Below, piece by piece: positions 669 to 8,461 of a stretch of 8,461 nt of DNA. The notes under the pieces were generated by a model, which saw nothing but the letters and a program-made list of their open reading frames with translations, did not search any database and was not told where the DNA came from. The position numbers and the translations under genes are program-made. The DNA lies in NCBI GenBank assembly GCA_021791235.1, contig JAJYXA010000152.1, positions 1 to 8,461 on the forward strand, written 5' to 3'. The first letter of the stretch is position 1. Every line of letters starts with the position of its first letter. Source of the stretch: Pseudomonadota bacterium (GTDB lineage: Bacteria; Pseudomonadota; Gammaproteobacteria; Burkholderiales; Thiobacillaceae).

Positions 669-1868
669 GTGTGGGCTGCGCCCACCCTACGCGGCTTTGC
701 TGTTTTGGCGCTGACCGCGCTGCCGGCCGTGCCCGCGCAGGCGAAGGAGGGCGATACCTTCCAGCCGTTCGTCTCCTACACGCGCTATTACGACAGCAAT
801 CTGTTTCGCCTCGCCGGGAGCGAATATGCATTGGTGCCGCACCTGTCCGACCAGTACGGCGTGCTGAGCGCCGGGGTGAACGCGGACTGGCAGCCCGGCC
901 GCCAGCGCGTCATCGCCAGCGCCAGCAAGAGCCTGGTGCGCTATTCGCGCAACCCCCAGCTGGATTACGACGGGTCGGATCATCAGTTGAAATGGAACTG
1001 GCGGTTGGGCAATCACTGGTCGGGCCAGGTCGGCGCCACCGAAAGCGTGGCGCAAAGCAGTTTCAGCGATCTGGTCGGCCTGCTGATCAACAACCAGGTC
1101 ACCCGGAAAAACCGCTTCGCCAACGCCGAGTGGCAGTTTCATCCGCGCTGGCATGCGGGACTGGGCGCGGCTACCGCTTCGTCGACCAACAGCACAACGC
1201 AGCGGGCGTCATCCGATTACGAGGACATCAGCGCATATGCCACCCTGGGCTACACCACGCCCAAGGGCAGCAAGCTGCGCGGCCAGCTGCGCAGGGTGGA
1301 GGGTGAATACCCCAACCGTTCGGCAGGTCTGTTCGCGGATCGCGCCTATACCTTGACCGAATACAACCTGCTGGGCGACTGGAACATGAGCGGCAAGCTG
1401 ATCGCCCACGCCAGGCTCGGCTATGTCCAGCGCGAGAACGACACCCTGTCGCAACGCAATTTTTCCGGTTTGGCGGGGCGTCTGTCGGCGGACTATTTCC
1501 CCAGCGGCAAAACCGCGCTGAACTGGGCGCTCTACCGCGAGATTGCGAACTCCGACGACGTCAACGCCAGCTACCAGCTCAGCGCCGGAACCCGCCTGGG
1601 CGCAGCCTGGCTGGCCACCTCCAGGGTCACCTTGCGCGCCAGCGCCAGTTTCGAGAACCGCTCATTCGAGGGCGATACCGGCTTTATTTTGCCGGGCACG
1701 CCCCAGCGTGACGAGGACACCCTCAGCGGTTCGCTGTCGCTGAGCTACGCCCCGCTCCGCATGGCCACCATCGATGTCGGCGTGCAGGCAGGACGTCGGG
1801 AATCCAATATCCCTGTCAACGATTACAAGTTTCACACGGTTTTTGTTAATGTCCGGGCTGATTTTTAG
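669..1868 (+). CDS. epsL: EpsL, outer-membrane beta-barrel protein of the EPS locus
   Basis: EpsL is the outer-membrane beta-barrel-like protein of exosortase-B EPS loci and a candidate pore for polymer exit. From the GTG at 669 the product is 399 residues, close to the family's usual length of just under 400. Residues 9-25 form a signal-peptide core (GFAVLALTALPAVPAQA) with probable cleavage after Ala25. The mature part begins with DTFQPFVSYTRYYDSNLFR, the usual EpsL/BBP2-type opening. It continues as alternating amphipathic strands with many aromatics and ends in Phe (VNVRADF), the classical outer-membrane barrel C-terminus. The start is uncertain: this frame has no ATG anywhere near the signal peptide, and GTG 669 overlaps a dispersed repeat and has no Shine-Dalgarno sequence. 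GTG 603 (inside another repeat) and TTG 705 are alternatives. The frame also stays open far upstream, over the CAAX-like gene, which I take as chance. The function is certain enough; the N-terminus is not. Confidence 0.82.
   Translation: MWAAPTLRGFAVLALTALPAVPAQAKEGDTFQPFVSYTRYYDSNLFRLAGSEYALVPHLSDQYGVLSAGVNADWQPGRQRVIASASKSLVRYSRNPQLDYDGSDHQLKWNWRLGNHWSGQVGATESVAQSSFSDLVGLLINNQVTRKNRFANAEWQFHPRWHAGLGAATASSTNSTTQRASSDYEDISAYATLGYTTPKGSKLRGQLRRVEGEYPNRSAGLFADRAYTLTEYNLLGDWNMSGKLIAHARLGYVQRENDTLSQRNFSGLAGRLSADYFPSGKTALNWALYREIANSDDVNASYQLSAGTRLGAAWLATSRVTLRASASFENRSFEGDTGFILPGTPQRDEDTLSGSLSLSYAPLRMATIDVGVQAGRRESNIPVNDYKFHTVFVNVRADF
671..690 (+). repeat. 20-base repeat (family B) inside the epsL 5' end
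   Basis: The sequence GTGGGCTGCGCCCACCCTAC is identical to 1928-1947 and to the reverse complement of 1972-1991 and 2077-2096. It contains a hairpin with stem GTGGGC/GCCCAC and a TGC loop. In the epsL frame it encodes Trp-Ala-Ala-Pro-Thr-Leu, the first residues after the proposed GTG start, so a repeat unit normally seen between genes forms part of the coding sequence. Confidence 0.85.
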
Positions 1869-2118: not shown

Positions 2119-2175
2119 TTGCAAGCAAACAATTTCAGGCAGGAGCGCGGTCAGCCTTTGCGGCGGCCGCCGATT

Positions 2176-2180
2176 GGAGA
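2176..2180 (+). promoter_or_regulatory. Ribosome binding site of epsE
   Basis: GGAGA lies 5 bases before the ATG at 2186. It favours that ATG over the in-frame TTG at 2174, which would leave the Shine-Dalgarno sequence inside the coding region. Confidence 0.7.
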
Positions 2181-2185
2181 AAGCG

Positions 2186-2980
2186 ATGACCGGGTTGTGG
2201 CGTAGTGTGTTGATGATGTGCGCGTTGCTGCTGGCGGCGCCGGCGTGGAGCGCGGACAACGATTACCGCATGGGCACCGGCGATGTGTTGCGCATCACCG
2301 TGTATGGGCAGCCCGAACTCACCACCGAAGCACGCGTAAGCGAAAACGGCAGCATCACCTTTCCGCTGATCGGAGACGTCAAGCTGGCGGGCAGTACCCC
2401 TGCCCAGGGCGAAACCGAAATCGCCAAGCGCCTGAGCAAGGGCGGTTTCATCCTCGAACCCTTCGTCACCCTCAACGTCCTGCAATACCGCAGCCAGCAG
2501 ATTTCGGTGCTGGGCCGGGTCAACCGGCCGGGCAAGTTCATCCTGGAAAAAGTCAGCCGCGTGACCGATGCGCTGGCGCTGGCCGGCGGCATCGTTGCCG
2601 ACGGCGCCGACACCCTCACTCTGGTGCGCACCCGCGACGGCAAGCCCGAATACCGTGAAATCGACGTGATCGCCCTGTTCAGGCCGGGCGGCGAGGCCAG
2701 CAACGAACTGGTTCAGGACGGCGACATCATCAATGTGGCGCGCCAGCCGATGTTCTACATCTACGGCGAAGTGCAGCGCCCCGGCGCCTTCCGCCTGGAA
2801 CGGAACATGAGCGTGGTGCAGGCCCTGTCGCTGGGCGGCGGCGTCACCGCGCGTGGCACCCAGAAAGGCATCCAGATCCTGCGCCGCGACGCCAGCGGCG
2901 TCATGCAGCAGCTGGACACCCGGTTGGCCGACCCGGTGAAAAAAGACGACGTGATCTACGTCAAGGAAAGCCTGTTTTGA
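2186..2980 (+). CDS. epsE: EpsE, polysaccharide export protein (OPX/Wza-like, non-lipoprotein)
   Basis: This is a periplasmic export protein of the Wza/OPX superfamily, carrying the EPS chain between the inner-membrane EpsF/EpsG complex and the outer membrane. The product is 264 residues. Residues 1-23 are a signal peptide (basic Arg6, hydrophobic core, WSA before Asp24). The Poly_export domain covers about 25-100 (YRMGTGDVLRITVYGQPELT). It is followed by two SLBB-type beta-grasp domains, opening at about 107 (SVLGRVNRPGKF) and about 191 (YIYGEVQRPGAF). There is no lipobox: the only N-terminal cysteine, Cys12, is in the signal core without the LA(G/A)C context. The protein ends soon after the second SLBB domain, so the lipid anchor and C-terminal amphipathic helix that let Wza form its own outer-membrane pore are both absent. 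This fits a need for a separate barrel, and EpsL is next door. A repeat-filled gap of 317 bases lies upstream. Confidence 0.92.
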   Translation: MTGLWRSVLMMCALLLAAPAWSADNDYRMGTGDVLRITVYGQPELTTEARVSENGSITFPLIGDVKLAGSTPAQGETEIAKRLSKGGFILEPFVTLNVLQYRSQQISVLGRVNRPGKFILEKVSRVTDALALAGGIVADGADTLTLVRTRDGKPEYREIDVIALFRPGGEASNELVQDGDIINVARQPMFYIYGEVQRPGAFRLERNMSVVQALSLGGGVTARGTQKGIQILRRDASGVMQQLDTRLADPVKKDDVIYVKESLF

Positions 2981-3003: not shown

Positions 3004-3071
3004 GTCATTCCGGCGCAGGCCGGAATCCGGTCAATCAGCGAAACTGGACCCCGGCGTTCGCCGGGGTGACG
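3004..3071 (+). repeat. Two-hairpin dispersed repeat (family A)
   Basis: This is a 68-base copy with hairpin ATTCCGGCGCAGGCCGGAAT first, then CCCCGGCGTTCGCCGGGG, and GTCA/TGAC ends. The second hairpin has compensating changes relative to the other copies (CCCCGG paired with CCGGGG in place of ACACCGG paired with CCGGTGT), so the stem is kept although the sequence changed. It occupies the middle of the 125-base epsE-epsF gap. Confidence 0.88.
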
Positions 3072-3105: not shown

Positions 3106-4491
3106 ATGAACTTCACCCAATTCCTGCTGATTCTGAACGCCCGCAAGTGGGTCATCCTCGGCGTGCTGTTGCTCACGGTTGCCGCCACCGCGGCAGTCAG
3201 CCTGCTGCTGCCCAGGGAATACACGGCGACCACCACGCTGATCATCGATTCCAAGAGCAAGGATGCGATAACCGGCCAGTTGCTGCCGTCGCAGATGTTC
3301 CCAGGCTACATGGCCACGCAGATCGACATCATCAACAGCAGCCAGGTGGCGAACCGCGTGGTGCGTGATCTGAAGCTGGCAGAGAATCCGGCCACCCGCG
3401 AGCAGTTCATGCAGGCGACCGAAGGCGAGGGCACGATCGAGGAGTGGCTGGCCAAGCTGCTGCTGCAAAAGATCGACGCCGAACCCTCGCGCGAATCCAG
3501 TGTCATTTCCATCGGCTTCACCGGTTCCGATCCCCGATTCGCCGCGATCGTGGCCAACGCCTTCGCCAAGGCCTACATCGAAACCAACCTCGACCTGCGC
3601 GTGGAGCCGGCCAAGCAGACCGCCGCCTGGTTCGACCAGCAGATCGTTCAGCTGCGCGCGAACCTCGATCAGGCCCAGCAGAAGCTCACTGCCTATCAGC
3701 GCGAAAAAGGCCTGGTCGAATCCGAGGAAAGGCTGGACGTCGAAACCCGCCGCATGGCCGACCTGGCCGGGCAGATGGTGGCTGCGCAATCGGCGTTGTT
3801 CGATGCCAGCTCGCGCACGCGCGACAGCGCCAGCCTGCCCGAAGTCATCAACAACCCCGTGGTGCAAAATCTCAAGGCCCAGGTGGCGCAGGGCGAAGGC
3901 CGGCTGGCCGAGCTGGCCAATCGGGTGGGGGCCAACCATCCCGACTTTATTCGCCTGCAGGCCGAGGTGAACAGCTACAAGACGAAACTCGCCGCCGAAC
4001 TCGGGACCGCCTTGCGCGGCGTGGGCGCAACCGCCGGCGCGGCGCGCCAACGCTACAACGAACTGAGCGGTGCATTCGCCAAACAAAAAGCCAAAGTGCT
4101 GGAACTGAAACAGCAGCGTGAGGAAGCCACGCTGCTGGCGCGCGACCTGGAAAACGCCCAGCGCATCTACGATTCCGCCCTGCAGCGCTACGGCCAGAGC
4201 CGCATGGAAGCGCAGTCCACGCAGACCGACATCGCGGTGCTGAACCCGGCCGTTGCCCCCACCGAGCCTTCCAAGCCGCGCGTCATCCTGAATATTCTGC
4301 TCTCGCTGTTCCTGGGCACCCTGCTGGGCGTAAGCCTGGGTTTTTTGATCGAACTGCTGGATCGCCGTGTACGTTCCGGACAGGACATCGTCGCCACCCT
4401 GGGCATTCCGGTGCTGGCCGAGGTCACGAAGAAAGGCCGCCTGGAAATCCTGCGCCGCATGTTCCGCCGCAGCCGCCCTGCGATGGCTTGA
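3106..4491 (+). CDS. epsF: EpsF, Wzz-type chain-length determinant
   Basis: EpsF is an inner-membrane polysaccharide co-polymerase that, with the EpsG ATPase, governs chain length and export. The product is 461 residues. There are two membrane helices: one at about 15-35 after a short cytoplasmic N-terminus, the other at about 393-418 preceded by the Pro-rich stretch NPAVAPTEPSKPR typical of Wzz proteins. The N-terminal Wzz domain spans about 1-100. The periplasmic part (about 36-392) is largely alpha-helical with long coiled-coil segments at about 170-240 and 310-370. A GNVR-like region near 274-280 (VGANHPD) is as in Wzc/GumC-type proteins. The C-terminal cytoplasmic tail (419-461) is basic and has no Walker motifs, so the ATPase is the separate gene epsG. 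A purine-rich stretch (AAAGAGA, 3091-3097) lies 8 bases before the ATG and serves as a weak ribosome binding site. Confidence 0.93.
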   Translation: MNFTQFLLILNARKWVILGVLLLTVAATAAVSLLLPREYTATTTLIIDSKSKDAITGQLLPSQMFPGYMATQIDIINSSQVANRVVRDLKLAENPATREQFMQATEGEGTIEEWLAKLLLQKIDAEPSRESSVISIGFTGSDPRFAAIVANAFAKAYIETNLDLRVEPAKQTAAWFDQQIVQLRANLDQAQQKLTAYQREKGLVESEERLDVETRRMADLAGQMVAAQSALFDASSRTRDSASLPEVINNPVVQNLKAQVAQGEGRLAELANRVGANHPDFIRLQAEVNSYKTKLAAELGTALRGVGATAGAARQRYNELSGAFAKQKAKVLELKQQREEATLLARDLENAQRIYDSALQRYGQSRMEAQSTQTDIAVLNPAVAPTEPSKPRVILNILLSLFLGTLLGVSLGFLIELLDRRVRSGQDIVATLGIPVLAEVTKKGRLEILRRMFRRSRPAMA

Positions 4492-4626: not shown

Positions 4627-4694
4627 GTCATTCCGGCGCAGGCCGGAATCCAGCGTTTGCGAGAAACTGGACACCGGCTTCCACCGGTGTGACG
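4627..4694 (+). repeat. Two-hairpin dispersed repeat (family A)
   Basis: This is a 68-base copy in the same orientation as 3004-3071. Its first hairpin, ATTCCGGCGCAGGCCGGAAT, is identical to the one at 3004; the second is ACACCGGCTTCCACCGGTGT, with a larger loop. It ends 59 bases before epsG. Confidence 0.88.
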
Positions 4695-4753: not shown

Positions 4754-5641
4754 ATGAATTCACTCACCAGCACCAGCGAACAAAGCAGCATCGTCGAAGC
4801 GGCGGCCGCCATCCGTGCCGAAGCCCACATCGGCAAGCTGCTGCAGGACGCCGGCAAGCTCAAGCCGCAGGATATGGAGCGCGTGCTCAAACTGCAGCAG
4901 GAACAGAACCTGCGCTTCGGCGAGGCCGCGCAAAAGCTTGGCCTGGTGAGCGAGGCCGACATCCGGCAGGCCTTGTCGCACCAGTTCGAGTATCCCACCA
5001 TTCCCGCCGCCGAGGCCCGCCTCAGCCCCGAGCTCACCGCCGCCACCGCGCCCTACGGCAAGGAGGCCGAAGCGCTGCGTTCGGTGCGTTCCGAACTGCT
5101 GCTGCGCTGGTTCCACGACGGCCGCAAGACGCTGGCGATCGGCAGCGCGCGCGCCGACGAAGGCGCGAGCTACCTGGCCGCCAACCTGGCGGTGCTGTTT
5201 GCGCAAATGGGGCGCAAGGTGCTGCTGATCGACGCCAACATGCGGCAGCCGCGCCAGCACAGGATTTTCAACCTGGGCAAGGGCATGGGTCTGTCCGACA
5301 TCCTGGCCGAGCGCGTGCCCGCGCCGCAGGTGCATACCATCAAGCCGTTCCAGACGCTGTCCGTGCTGCCCGCCGGTTCGCCCCCGCCCAACCCGGCCGA
5401 ACTGCTGGCGCGGCCATCGTTCGGCGCATTGCTGTCCGGGCTGGAAATCCGCTACGATACCATCCTGCTGGACACCGCGCCGTCGCAGCTCGGATCGGAT
5501 TTTCTGCTGGTCGCGGCGCGCGCCGGCGGCATGCTCATCGCCGCCCGCCGCAATGTCAGCCGCCTGGCGCCGCTGGCTGAACTGAAAGAAAAAATCACCC
5601 TCACCGGCGCGCAAGCCGTCGGCGCCGTCGTACTGGACTGA
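4754..5641 (+). CDS. epsG: EpsG, BY-kinase-like ATPase with an MshEN-like N-terminal module and degenerate Walker motifs
   Basis: EpsG is the cytoplasmic partner of EpsF, related to bacterial tyrosine kinases (Wzc C-domain/CapB, ParA-MinD fold). The product is 295 residues; GAGG (4743-4746) lies 7 bases before the ATG. Residues about 25-80 form a GspE-N/MshEN-like module with two 24-residue motifs, 25-48 and 54-77 (see findings). The P-loop fold covers about 105-295. Its Walker A region is ADEGASYLAANLA (134-146), where the usual GEGKS is DEGAS: the lysine is Ala138 and the preceding glycine is Asp135. Walker A' is LLIDANMR (157-164), with Asn162 for the second Asp. Walker B is ILLDTAP (237-243), with Asp240 kept. 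The protein ends AVVLD and has no C-terminal tyrosine cluster. ATP binding and autophosphorylation may therefore be weak or absent. Its stop is 4 bases from xrtB, suggesting translational coupling. The family call is firm; enzymatic activity is doubtful. Confidence 0.9.
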   Translation: MNSLTSTSEQSSIVEAAAAIRAEAHIGKLLQDAGKLKPQDMERVLKLQQEQNLRFGEAAQKLGLVSEADIRQALSHQFEYPTIPAAEARLSPELTAATAPYGKEAEALRSVRSELLLRWFHDGRKTLAIGSARADEGASYLAANLAVLFAQMGRKVLLIDANMRQPRQHRIFNLGKGMGLSDILAERVPAPQVHTIKPFQTLSVLPAGSPPPNPAELLARPSFGALLSGLEIRYDTILLDTAPSQLGSDFLLVAARAGGMLIAARRNVSRLAPLAELKEKITLTGAQAVGAVVLD

Positions 5642-5645
5642 ACGC

Positions 5646-6545
5646 ATGGCTACGCTTGCCCCCTCCACTTCCGCGCTCGACGCCCTGGCGCCCCTTAAAG
5701 CCTGGTGGCCGATCATCCTCGGCCTGCTGGTGCTGTATGCGCCCACCTACTGGATGCTGGCGCACGGTCTGTGGAACTCGGACGATTATGCCCACGGCCC
5801 CATCGTGCTGATCGTTACGCTGTATCTGATCTGGCAGCAGCGCGCCGTATTCACGAACGACGCCGCAACTCTGCCCACGCGCGGCGAAGTTGCGGCTGGC
5901 TGGATGCTGCTCGTCGCCGGCCTGCTGGCGTATGCGCTGGGCCGCTCGCAGGACATCCTGCTGTTCGAGGTGGGCTCGCAGATTCCGGTCATCCTCGGCG
6001 CGCTGCTCGTCACGCTGGGAACGAAAGCCGCGCGCGCGCTGTGGTTCGCGCTGTTCTTCCTGCTGTTCATGGTGCCGTTGCCGGGCTTTGTGGTCGACAC
6101 CGCCACCGGCCCGCTCAAGCAATACATTTCGGTCATCGCAGAACAGGTGCTGTACGCGGCCGGTTACCCCGTCGCGCGCAGCGGCGTCATGCTCACCGTG
6201 GGGCAATACCAGCTGCTGGTGGCCGACGCCTGCTCCGGCCTGCACTCCATGTTCAGCCTGTCGGCCATGGGCCTGCTGTATCTGTACCTGATGCAGCGCA
6301 CCAGCCTCGCGCGCAACCTCATCATCATGGCCGCCATTCTGCCGATTGCATTCGCCGCCAACGTGGTGCGCGTCATCATCCTGATCCTGGTGACCTACCA
6401 CCTGGGCGACGAAGCCGGGCAGGGCTTCCTGCATGGCTTTGCCGGGATCATGCTGTTCGTGATAGGGCTGCTGTTTTTGTTTGCGCTGGACGGGGTGCTG
6501 GGATTTTTCTTCCCCGACCGACCGCGCGCACGGGCGCAGGCCTGA
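5646..6545 (+). CDS. xrtB: Exosortase B
   Basis: Exosortases are multi-pass inner-membrane cysteine transpeptidase-like enzymes that cut the C-terminal PEP-CTERM sorting signal of exported proteins. They are found with EPS loci and are functionally analogous to sortases. The product is 299 residues, a normal length. The catalytic triad is visible: Cys196 in DACSGLHSM, Arg242 in NVVRVIIL and His263 in GFLHGFAG. About eight hydrophobic helices occur, including 20-38, 50-64, 84-98, 112-126, 131-145, 222-239, 242-251 and 266-288. The N-terminal SDDYAHGPIV (45-54) is the usual exosortase opening motif. No strong Shine-Dalgarno precedes the ATG, which is 4 bases after the epsG stop, so translation is probably coupled to epsG. 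The B subtype is assigned from the neighbours (epsE/F/G upstream, epsI downstream) and the overall sequence. Confidence 0.93.
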   Translation: MATLAPSTSALDALAPLKAWWPIILGLLVLYAPTYWMLAHGLWNSDDYAHGPIVLIVTLYLIWQQRAVFTNDAATLPTRGEVAAGWMLLVAGLLAYALGRSQDILLFEVGSQIPVILGALLVTLGTKAARALWFALFFLLFMVPLPGFVVDTATGPLKQYISVIAEQVLYAAGYPVARSGVMLTVGQYQLLVADACSGLHSMFSLSAMGLLYLYLMQRTSLARNLIIMAAILPIAFAANVVRVIILILVTYHLGDEAGQGFLHGFAGIMLFVIGLLFLFALDGVLGFFFPDRPRARAQA

Positions 6546-6613: not shown

Positions 6614-6680
6614 GTCGCCATTCCGGCGAATGCCGGAATCCAGTCCATTCAACTGGACACCGGCGTACGCCGGTGTGACG
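6614..6680 (+). repeat. Two-hairpin dispersed repeat (family A)
   Basis: This 67-base copy has hairpins ATTCCGGCGAATGCCGGAAT and ACACCGGCGTACGCCGGTGT. The usual GTCATTCC start is GTCGCCATTCC here and the spacer between the hairpins is slightly shorter. It lies in the 169-base xrtB-epsI gap and ends 34 bases before epsI. The rest of the gap (6546-6613) shows nothing recognisable. Confidence 0.87.
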
Positions 6681-6714: not shown

Positions 6715-7410
6715 ATGAAACTCATCAGCTTCAAACACCTCGTCATCGGGCTGTGCATGTTTGCCGCCGCCGGCATGGCGCTGGCACTCAAGCCCACCGC
6801 CAAGGTTGCGGATGCCGGGCCCAAGGTCGATCTGGAAACGCTGATCCCCAAAACGTTCGGCGACTGGAAAATCGACGAAACCATCACGCCGCTGATCGCC
6901 AACCCCGAGCAGGAAGCGCTCATCAACAAAATCTACAACCAGACGCTCACGCGCACCTACGTCAATTCGCGCAACGAGCGCATCATGCTGTCCATCGCCT
7001 ATGGCGGCGACCAGAGCGACAACATGGCGGTGCATAAGCCCGAGGTCTGCTATCCCGCCCAAGGCTTCCAGATTCTCAAGACTCCCACCATCGGCACGTT
7101 CTCCACCGACCAGGGCAGCATCCCCGTCAAACGCCTGGTGGCCACGCAGGGGCAGCGCATCGAGCCGATCACCTACTGGACGACCGTGGGCGACACCGTC
7201 GCCGTGAGCGGGCTGAAGTGGAAGCTGCAGCAACTGAAATACGGCCTCACCGGCAAGATTCCCGATGGCCTGCTGTTCAGGATTTCGAGCATCCAGGCCG
7301 ACGATGCGAAGGCCTACCAAAACCAGGATGCATTCACCCGCGATCTGCTCAAGGCGATGTCGCCCGGCGGGCGTGAACGCATCATCGGCAACCCTAACCC
7401 AGCCAGCTGA
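6715..7410 (+). CDS. epsI: EpsI, exosortase-B-associated protein
   Basis: EpsI-family proteins accompany exosortases, either as separate genes or fused to the exosortase C-terminus. Their biochemical role is not settled. The product is 231 residues. Residues about 8-25 are a hydrophobic N-terminal segment after Lys2/Lys7, a signal anchor or uncleaved signal peptide, so the bulk is probably periplasmic. The family hallmarks are present: the FGDWK opening (48-52), a [19 protein letters not shown] strand region (82-100) and the invariant-type [12 protein letters not shown] (107-118) with His107 and Cys112. A strong ribosome binding site, TGGAGG (6705-6710), is 4 bases before the ATG. That site is much better than those of its neighbours and fits separate translation initiation after the repeat-filled gap. 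gmd follows after 53 bases. Confidence 0.92.
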
Positions 7411-7463: not shown

Positions 7464-8461
7464 ATGACCAAAAAAGCCCTCATCACCGGCGTCACCGGCC
7501 AGGACGGCGCCTACCTTGCCGAATTCCTGCTGGCCAAAGGCTACGAAGTCCACGGCATCAAGCGCCGCACCTCGCTGTTCAACACCGACCGCATCGACCA
7601 CCTCTACCAGGATCCGCACGAGCAGGGCCGCCGCTTCATCCTGCACCACGGCGATCTCACCGACAGCTCCAGCCTCATCCGCATCATCCAGCAGGTGCAG
7701 CCCGACGAAATCTACAACCTGGCCGCGCAAAGCCACGTCGCCGTCAGCTTCGAGGAACCCGAATACACCGCCAACTCCGACGCGCTGGGCGCCCTGCGCA
7801 TCCTCGAAGCCATCCGCATCCTCGGCCTGGAAAAGCAAACCCGCTTCTACCAGGCCAGCACCTCCGAGCTCTTCGGCCTGGTGCAGGAAACCCCGCAGAA
7901 GGAAACCACCCCCTTCTACCCGAGGAGCCCCTATGCCGTCGCCAAGCTCTACGCCTACTGGATCACCGTCAACTACCGCGAAGCCTACGGCATGTATGCC
8001 TGCAACGGCATCCTGTTCAACCACGAAAGCCCGGTGCGCGGCGAAACCTTCGTCACCCGCAAGATCACCCGCGCACTCGCCAGGATCAAGCTCGGCCTGC
8101 AGGACTGCCTCTTCCTCGGCAACATGTCGGCCCGCCGCGACTGGGGCCACGCCAGGGACTACGTCGAAATGCAGTGGCTGATGCTGCAGCAGGAAACGCC
8201 CGAGGACTTCGTCATCGCCACCGGCGTCCAGTACTCCGTCCGGGACTTCGTCAACGCCGCCGCCAGGGAGCTCGGCATGCAAATCCGCTGGGAAGGGCAG
8301 GGCGTCGACGAGAAAGGCTACGACGCCCATGGCAAATGCATCGTCGCCGTCGACCCGCGCTACTTCCGCCCCACCGAAGTCGAAACCCTCCTGGGGGACC
8401 CCGGCAAGGCCAAGCAGAAACTGGGCTGGACCCCCAGAATCACCTTCGACGAACTGGTGGC
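7464..8461 (+). CDS. gmd: GDP-mannose 4,6-dehydratase, 3'-truncated by the window end
   Basis: Gmd converts GDP-D-mannose to GDP-4-keto-6-deoxy-D-mannose in the cytoplasm, the branch point for GDP-L-fucose, GDP-D-rhamnose and GDP-perosamine, which are typical EPS or O-antigen sugars. The window shows 332 codons with no stop; E. coli Gmd is 373 residues, so about 40 are missing. It is an extended short-chain dehydrogenase. The Rossmann motif is [16 protein letters not shown] (8-23). Thr133 and Glu135 lie in STSELFG, and the catalytic pair Tyr157/Lys161 is in SPYAVAK. The substrate-contacting [16 protein letters not shown] is at 186-201, and [13 protein letters not shown] (222-234) is highly conserved in Gmd. 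No good Shine-Dalgarno is seen before the ATG. The 53-base gap to epsI has no terminator, so co-transcription is likely. Which final sugar is made depends on genes beyond the window. Confidence 0.95.

Follow-up and report, generated by a model that had tools for sequence, protein, structure and literature searches.

The window, by which is meant the whole 8,461-nucleotide stretch of DNA analysed here (contig JAJYXA010000152.1), holds an exosortase-B exopolysaccharide (EPS) cluster of a Thiobacillus-like bacterium (Burkholderiales, Gammaproteobacteria), in the order epsL, epsE, epsF, epsG, xrtB and epsI, followed by the beginning of another gene. The eps genes, xrtB and the EpsG features given below lie on the forward strand. 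The subject of this analysis is epsG (4754..5641), a 295-residue open reading frame (ORF) in which an MshEN-like N-domain is joined to a domain with the fold of bacterial tyrosine kinases (BY-kinases). EpsG scores 333.2 bits with TIGR03029, which passes the EpsG equivalog cut-off of 313.8 bits, and its closest organism-named relatives among the matches listed are from Thiobacillus, at 88-89% identity. Upstream are epsE (2174..2980; TIGR03028, 372.2 bits), encoding an outer-membrane polysaccharide export protein, and epsF (3106..4491; TIGR03017, 657 bits), encoding the split chain-length determinant or polysaccharide co-polymerase that is the likely partner of EpsG.

An MshEN-like unit at the N-terminus of EpsG

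The original prediction, made from the letters of the window, read two tandem 24-residue motifs with a 5-residue linker at EpsG residues 25-77. The coordinates proved exact, with codons 25-77 coinciding with 4826..4984, and the spacing equals the two 24-residue motifs and 5-residue spacer described for MshEN (Wang et al. 2016, PMC5013675; publications are cited throughout from those portions of their text that were available). Motif 1 runs from H-I-G to Q48 (residues 25-48, 4826..4897; HIGKLLQDAGKLKPQDMERVLKLQ), the linker QEQNL occupies residues 49-53 (4898..4912), and motif 2 runs from R-F-G to Q77 (residues 54-77, 4913..4984; RFGEAAQKLGLVSEADIRQALSHQ). This 53-residue unit aligns without gaps to the c-di-GMP (cyclic di-GMP)-binding unit of MshE, which is also 53 residues long. 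At the key positions of V. cholerae MshE, seven of twelve residues are identical (G11, L29, Q32, R38, G40, L58 and Q61), another four show hydrophobic substitutions (L10I, L25M, L39F and L54I) and one is a loss (R9H); the turn glycines G18 and G47 are both retained. The third-position Gly (G27, G56) and the end Gln (Q48, Q77) are present in both motifs. The strict consensus has Arg, or in its extended form Lys or Leu, at position 1 of both motifs; R54 is present in motif 2 and His25 stands in motif 1, and the unit is named MshEN-like because His25 departs from that consensus. The relaxed motif of PMC5013675 is broken at His25, Gln31, Lys35 and Gln60.

To place the window's protein in its family, EpsG sequences were drawn from genomes of the order and the class, a related-locus search and fetched regions. 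The EpsG profile gave 174 matches, of which 26 were dropped as not full length, and the remaining 148, including the window, comprised 144 distinct sequences and 98 at <80% identity. A second set of 237 database proteins came from two overlapping searches (the best 120 of 700 and the best 120 of 3,986 matches); it includes the window's own protein, is biased to near relatives and contains 41 non-redundant sequences.

Homology to MshEN is evident from several profile comparisons. NF053729, the NCBIfam model of an MshE-related c-di-GMP motif, matches residues 26-77 of the window's EpsG at 39.3 bits (cut-off 38, E 4.2e-10), and the score rises to 42.1 bits with residues 1-95 alone. The same model matches, at E<=1e-3, all 90 aligned proteins of a hand-thinned set made up of the window, three loci and 86 members of the 237-protein database set. 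Because EpsG might be in the seed of NF053729, a separate hidden Markov model (HMM) was built from 31 non-EpsG MshEN domains, namely 30 that NF053729 picked out of long ORFs in related genomes (five of the source ORFs were checked, all T2SSE ATPases) and that of V. cholerae MshE. With this model, 97 of the 98 EpsG N-domains score higher than every one of 1,960 shuffles, and 91 reach E < 1e-3 for 1,000 sequences; the window's EpsG is among the weaker family members, at 13.1 bits (E 0.0041), or 9.7 bits (E 0.046) at full length. Furthermore, hhalign aligns the 98-row EpsG alignment with the 31 non-EpsG domains at 98.7% (E 1.9e-16) over 53 ungapped columns, compared to 0.1% for the kinase half, and a PDB sequence search with residues 1-95 returned PilF, PilB and MshE at E 2.8e-5 to 3.3e-3. 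The Pfam model PF05157, named by the original prediction as one of its tests, gave no match in the window's EpsG at E<1. This is uninformative because PF05157 covers the other half of MshEN (MshEN_C) and begins downstream of the 53-residue unit in 5/5 MshE/PilB-type ATPases examined, and it was dropped as a decisive test.

Across the 98 EpsG, Gly27, Phe55, Gly56 and Gln77 are invariant (each 98/98), and L74 (93/98), R54 (87/98) and Q48 (83/98) follow. Mean entropy within the unit is 1.01 bits at the 14 ligand or turn positions compared to 2.06 bits at the other 39. The 237 listed proteins give a similar picture (G27 237, Q48 236, R54 235, F55 236, G56 237 and Q77 237). By these sequence comparisons the MshEN-like unit is a family trait of EpsG. 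The earlier suggestion of a fusion between a c-di-GMP-sensor-like module and the protein that partners the chain-length determinant is supported by the family model, the profile-profile match and conservation in homologues, with a consistent predicted fold. The conservation that it named as a check holds for both glycines and Gln77, and in most members for R54 and Q48, but not for the motif-1 Arg. That Arg is indeed replaced by His in the window, as had been pointed out with regard to a reduced or lost affinity, but this is not peculiar, since position 25 is Arg in only 15/98 EpsG (S 30, N 13, T 7, A 7, P 6, H 5, K 5 and others) and is reported to be tolerant: a change of MshE R9 costs at most about fivefold, as does one of Gln32 (PMC5013675), and PilF GSPII-B binds at 6 nM despite Lys and Leu replacing two Arg (PMC11731258). 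According to published work, changes of the glycines have the strongest effects. MshE G11 and G40 variants showed no ligand stabilisation (PMC5013675), and in NfrB, G491L abolished function and G519S partly reduced it, with most other substitutions being without effect (PMC8669472).

Several observations weigh against ligand binding. Position 1 of motif 1 is a helix-capping Ser, Asn or Thr in 50/98 EpsG, recalling PilF GSPII-A, the position of MshE L25 is frequently Ala (40/98), and 24/98 depart from strict Gln48 or Arg/Lys54, so that loss in some EpsG sub-lineages is likely on the sequences. Structure prediction adds to these points. Searches with the full-length model in Foldseek and VIA-align returned lists filled by the kinase half alone, and for this reason the N-domain was predicted separately. 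The resulting model is a predicted four-helix bundle (pLDDT 71.3), for which Foldseek gave no significant E-values; its first match was PilF GSPII-A, which does not bind c-di-GMP (PMC12002112), and helix 1 of EpsG is predicted to be long, as in that domain. The N-domain could then be a fossil that keeps the GSPII/MshEN fold without binding c-di-GMP and instead makes a protein contact, for example with EpsF, a glycosyltransferase or a neighbouring EpsG, which would leave EpsG as a scaffold pseudokinase like EcpK. There is precedent in the non-binding GSPII domains of XpsE (PMC5013675) and PilF GSPII-A, but XpsE is reported to have lost G11, G40 and Q61 among others, whereas the equivalent G27, G56 and Q77 stand in 98/98 EpsG, and we regard this explanation as rather unlikely.

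In addition, Phe takes the place of MshEN Leu39 at residue 55 (window 4916-4918) in 98/98 EpsG. Together with the small residue at the L25 position, it is possible, judging from the alignment, that this reflects a swap of large and small side chains within the guanine pocket.

The kinase half of EpsG

The C-terminal domain of the window's EpsG has lost much of the signature of an active BY-kinase. Its Walker A is degenerate (SARADEGAS, residues 131-139, 5144..5170), with the catalytic Lys replaced by Ala138 (5165-5167), as is its Walker A' (LLIDANMR, residues 157-164, 5222..5245), where Asn162 replaces the second Asp and the DxDxR of active BY-kinases reads DANMR. The C-terminal end (5564..5641) is without a Tyr-rich tail, and no Tyr occurs at the window protein's C-terminus. 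Walker B (ILLDTAP, residues 237-243, 5462..5482) is retained, with D240 in 89/98 EpsG. Also kept is ExxRxxR (residues 106-112, 5069..5089; E106 96/98, R109 96/98 and R112 98/98), the counterpart of the BY-kinase ring-contact helix.

These losses extend through the family. GK[ST] is retained in 13/98 EpsG compared to 30/30 XrtA-type kinases (here and below the best 30 of 66 listed matches) and 17/19 control BY-kinases from the same searches, of which the other two read GRS. The controls were the remainder of 22 partial BY-kinase matches after removal of two EpsG pieces (L027 and L056) and of L070, which fell to the start filter and reads GTGKS. The second Asp position of Walker A' is D in 56/98 and N in 40/98 EpsG, and D in 30/30 XrtA-type kinases. 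Within the last 25 residues, 75/98 EpsG have no Tyr, 21 have one and two have two, while XrtA-type kinases carry 3-8 Tyr in their last 30. EpsG is a common family, exceeding the cut-off in 67/399 genomes of the order; in the class it does so in 6/274. Its annotation as a tyrosine kinase is unsupported by sequence for most members. The window's EpsG has the attributes by which BY pseudokinases are defined, namely the BY-kinase fold, neither catalytic Lys nor Tyr tail, and a kinase-less PCP-2 protein alongside. From sequence, the kinase half looks dead, and the original description of this partner as an ATPase has to be revised, as a working ATPase or kinase is unlikely with Ala in place of the Walker A Lys and no Tyr tail.

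Against the pseudokinase reading, the Walker A Lys is kept in 14/98 EpsG; Arg stands in its place in 39/98. EpsG could in principle be an active kinase or ATPase that binds and hydrolyses ATP via a deviant P-loop, with its activity modulated by c-di-GMP. The overall P-loop, Walker B Asp240 and Ser139 (81/98) do remain, and GRS is also found in 2/19 controls. Set against this are Ala138 and Asn162 in the window, the missing Tyr tail and the count of Lys among the 237 database matches listed, 0/237 (41 non-redundant, with near relatives over-represented), which together make retained catalysis quite improbable. Taking the Walker counts with those at the ligand positions, decay affects the catalytic site but spares the glycines and end Gln. 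Within EpsG, the intactness of the ligand residues showed no association with loss of the Walker Lys (intact to not intact, 63/21 without Lys and 11/3 with Lys). On a tree of the 98 EpsG, the Walker A Lys position changes at least 26 times, and between Lys and not-Lys six times; Q48 changes nine times and R54 seven times. The Walker Lys is present in 1/33 EpsG with a linked XrtB compared to 10/24 without, a comparison that was not corrected for kinship and is limited to 57 non-redundant EpsG in loci of at least 8 kb, 41/98 being omitted (loci <8 kb or the window).

Four Lys-keeping EpsG ORFs (L168, L169, L172 and L173) extend past the usual end into a tail mostly rich in basic residues. In this they recall EcpK, for which a basic C-terminal helix is described.

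A proposed c-di-GMP input to the EpsF co-polymerase

On balance, EpsG is probably a c-di-GMP-receptor pseudokinase that gates EpsF without phosphorylation. It would regulate EpsF, the split polysaccharide co-polymerase, through two domains: the N-domain (residues 25-77) would clamp one c-di-GMP between motifs 1 and 2, and the C-domain, a putative BY pseudokinase, retains the ring-contact helix without the Walker A Lys and Tyr tail. By analogy with CapB and CapA, EpsG could dock at the cytoplasmic base of EpsF. Wzc alternates between a dephosphorylated octamer and a phosphorylated monomer; replacement of the Walker Lys gives a stable Wzc octamer (PMC8285477). Binding of c-di-GMP may replace Tyr phosphorylation, which drives this octamer-monomer cycle in canonical Wzc/CapAB systems, as the input; the bound nucleotide would favour or disfavour the EpsF-EpsG ring and in this way gate polymerisation and export through EpsE/EpsL. 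Our guess is that high c-di-GMP activates. The model thus builds on what the sequences show (homology and register of the domain, conservation of most ligand positions across the family, loss of kinase signatures and the epsE-epsF-epsG order), whereas ligand binding, docking and ring control are inferred.

The closest counterpart for the output is EcpK, a pseudokinase that binds the kinase-less PCP-2 protein EpsV (PMC12004946). EpsG shares with EcpK and HfsB a stand-alone BY-kinase fold that lacks both the catalytic Lys and the Tyr tail and is encoded alongside a PCP-2 protein that has no kinase (PMC12004946); unlike EcpK, it retains most of its P-loop as well as Walker B. c-di-GMP is proposed as the switch because EpsG has this EcpK-like output plus a sensor; the term c-di-GMP has no occurrence in the main text of the EcpK paper. 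The sensor resembles that of MshE/PilB-type ATPases (V. cholerae MshE, T. thermophilus PilF) in its two 24-residue motifs, 5-residue linker, register and predicted four-helix bundle. EpsG differs from them in having a BY-kinase-fold pseudokinase rather than a secretion ATPase as its output, in its lack of a PF05157 match, in Phe at the L39 position and in the motif-1 Arg, which is mostly absent. NfrB, an E. coli glycosyltransferase with a C-terminal MshEN, likewise has the domain wired to an exopolysaccharide machine (PMC8669469, PMC8669472), but NfrB is a synthase-type polymerase, whereas EpsG, part of a split PCP-2 system, carries its sensor N-terminally. CapA/CapB and Wzc, in contrast to EpsG, are active kinases with GK[ST] and a Tyr tail, and no MshEN is described for them in the text available. 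The XrtA-type kinase TIGR03018 is, like EpsG, a BY-kinase of PEP-CTERM/EPS loci, but has kept the GK[ST] and tail Tyr noted above; a search for MshEN in the XrtA-type kinases gave no convincing match (best E 0.35 for 1,000 sequences).

MshEN is also able to bind 3',3'-cGAMP (PMC5013675), and another cyclic dinucleotide of this kind could be the natural ligand of EpsG. This is very improbable, given that c-di-GMP is the established MshEN ligand and that the three EpsG-bearing genomes examined have many diguanylate cyclase domains (42, 60 and 55 GGDEF matches; cGAMP synthases were not searched for). A GGDEF-like gene adjoins epsG in 1/94 loci by pattern search, and for that reason no local cyclase is proposed for the c-di-GMP-receptor pseudokinase.

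More tentatively, XrtB-type EPS systems in general may have replaced Tyr phosphorylation with a second messenger, with the ligand state of EpsG assembling or dissolving the EpsF ring; we regard this as slightly less likely than not. If the proposal is true, a Wzx/Wzy-type co-polymerase would be controlled by c-di-GMP directly. BY pseudokinases have been described as a third PCP-2 subfamily, whose authors ask how the co-polymerase is stimulated without phosphorylation (PMC12004946); EpsG points to a specific input signal, and candidate residues for mutation are named here. Similarly, a 2025 review has c-di-GMP activating synthase-type systems and phosphorylation controlling Wzy-dependent ones (PMC12220298), two classes that EpsG would bridge.

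The literature search found no description of MshEN in EpsG or another BY-kinase in the text covered, supplementary tables being outside its scope. The word tyrosine is absent from the main text of PMC5013675, supplementary tables excluded. PMC8669469, citing PMC5013675 and Chou and Galperin 2016, states that MshEN domains seem to have a part in polysaccharide secretion and in the phosphorylation of proteins, and the EpsG-MshEN fusion may be listed in the supplementary tables of PMC5013675 or in Chou and Galperin 2016. The name EpsG is also used for different proteins, which were set aside: a protein called a glucosyltransferase in Herbaspirillum (PMC4195743) and an EpsG-family glycosyltransferase in Sphingomonas (PMC11340318).

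Genomic surroundings of epsG

The epsE-epsF-epsG order of the window recurs in the wider sample. Of 147 EpsG loci retrieved, 94 span 8 kb or more (one place is counted twice, as L011 and L126), and in these EpsF lies upstream of EpsG in 89/94, EpsE in 81/94 and EpsL in 49/94; downstream, XrtB is found in 65/94 and EpsI in 64/94. Thiobacillus denitrificans RG has two EpsG over the cut-off (L045, G001:C22, and L126, G001:C27; 357 and 339 bits), and the C27 copy adjoins the only over-cut-off XrtB of that genome.

The other genes of the window complete the cluster. epsL, encoding an outer-membrane protein, lies at 711..1868 (TIGR03014, 381.3 bits, residues 221-605 of ORF 51-1868), with a provisional gene start. 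xrtB, encoding exosortase B, is at 5646..6545 (TIGR03113, 424.1 bits) and epsI, of type B, at 6715..7410 (NF045609, 298.8 bits). Judged by eye only, a 181-residue ORF at 13-558, upstream of epsL, resembles a CPBP/CAAX-type membrane protease, and an ORF at 7464-8459 that leaves the window resembles a GDP-mannose 4,6-dehydratase.

Two repeat families were also noticed. A REP-like palindromic repeat of ~68 nt occupies four intergenic sites in the eps cluster (584-651, 3004-3071, 4627-4694 and 6615-6680), one copy directly preceding epsG; the copy at 584-651 is a better match when inverted, and that at 6615-6680 was detected only as two shorter pieces. The other family, GTGGGCTGCGCCCACCCTAC and its inverse, forms perfect arms of 20 nt between epsL and epsE (1913-2102), and a related copy lies near the start of epsL (656-693).
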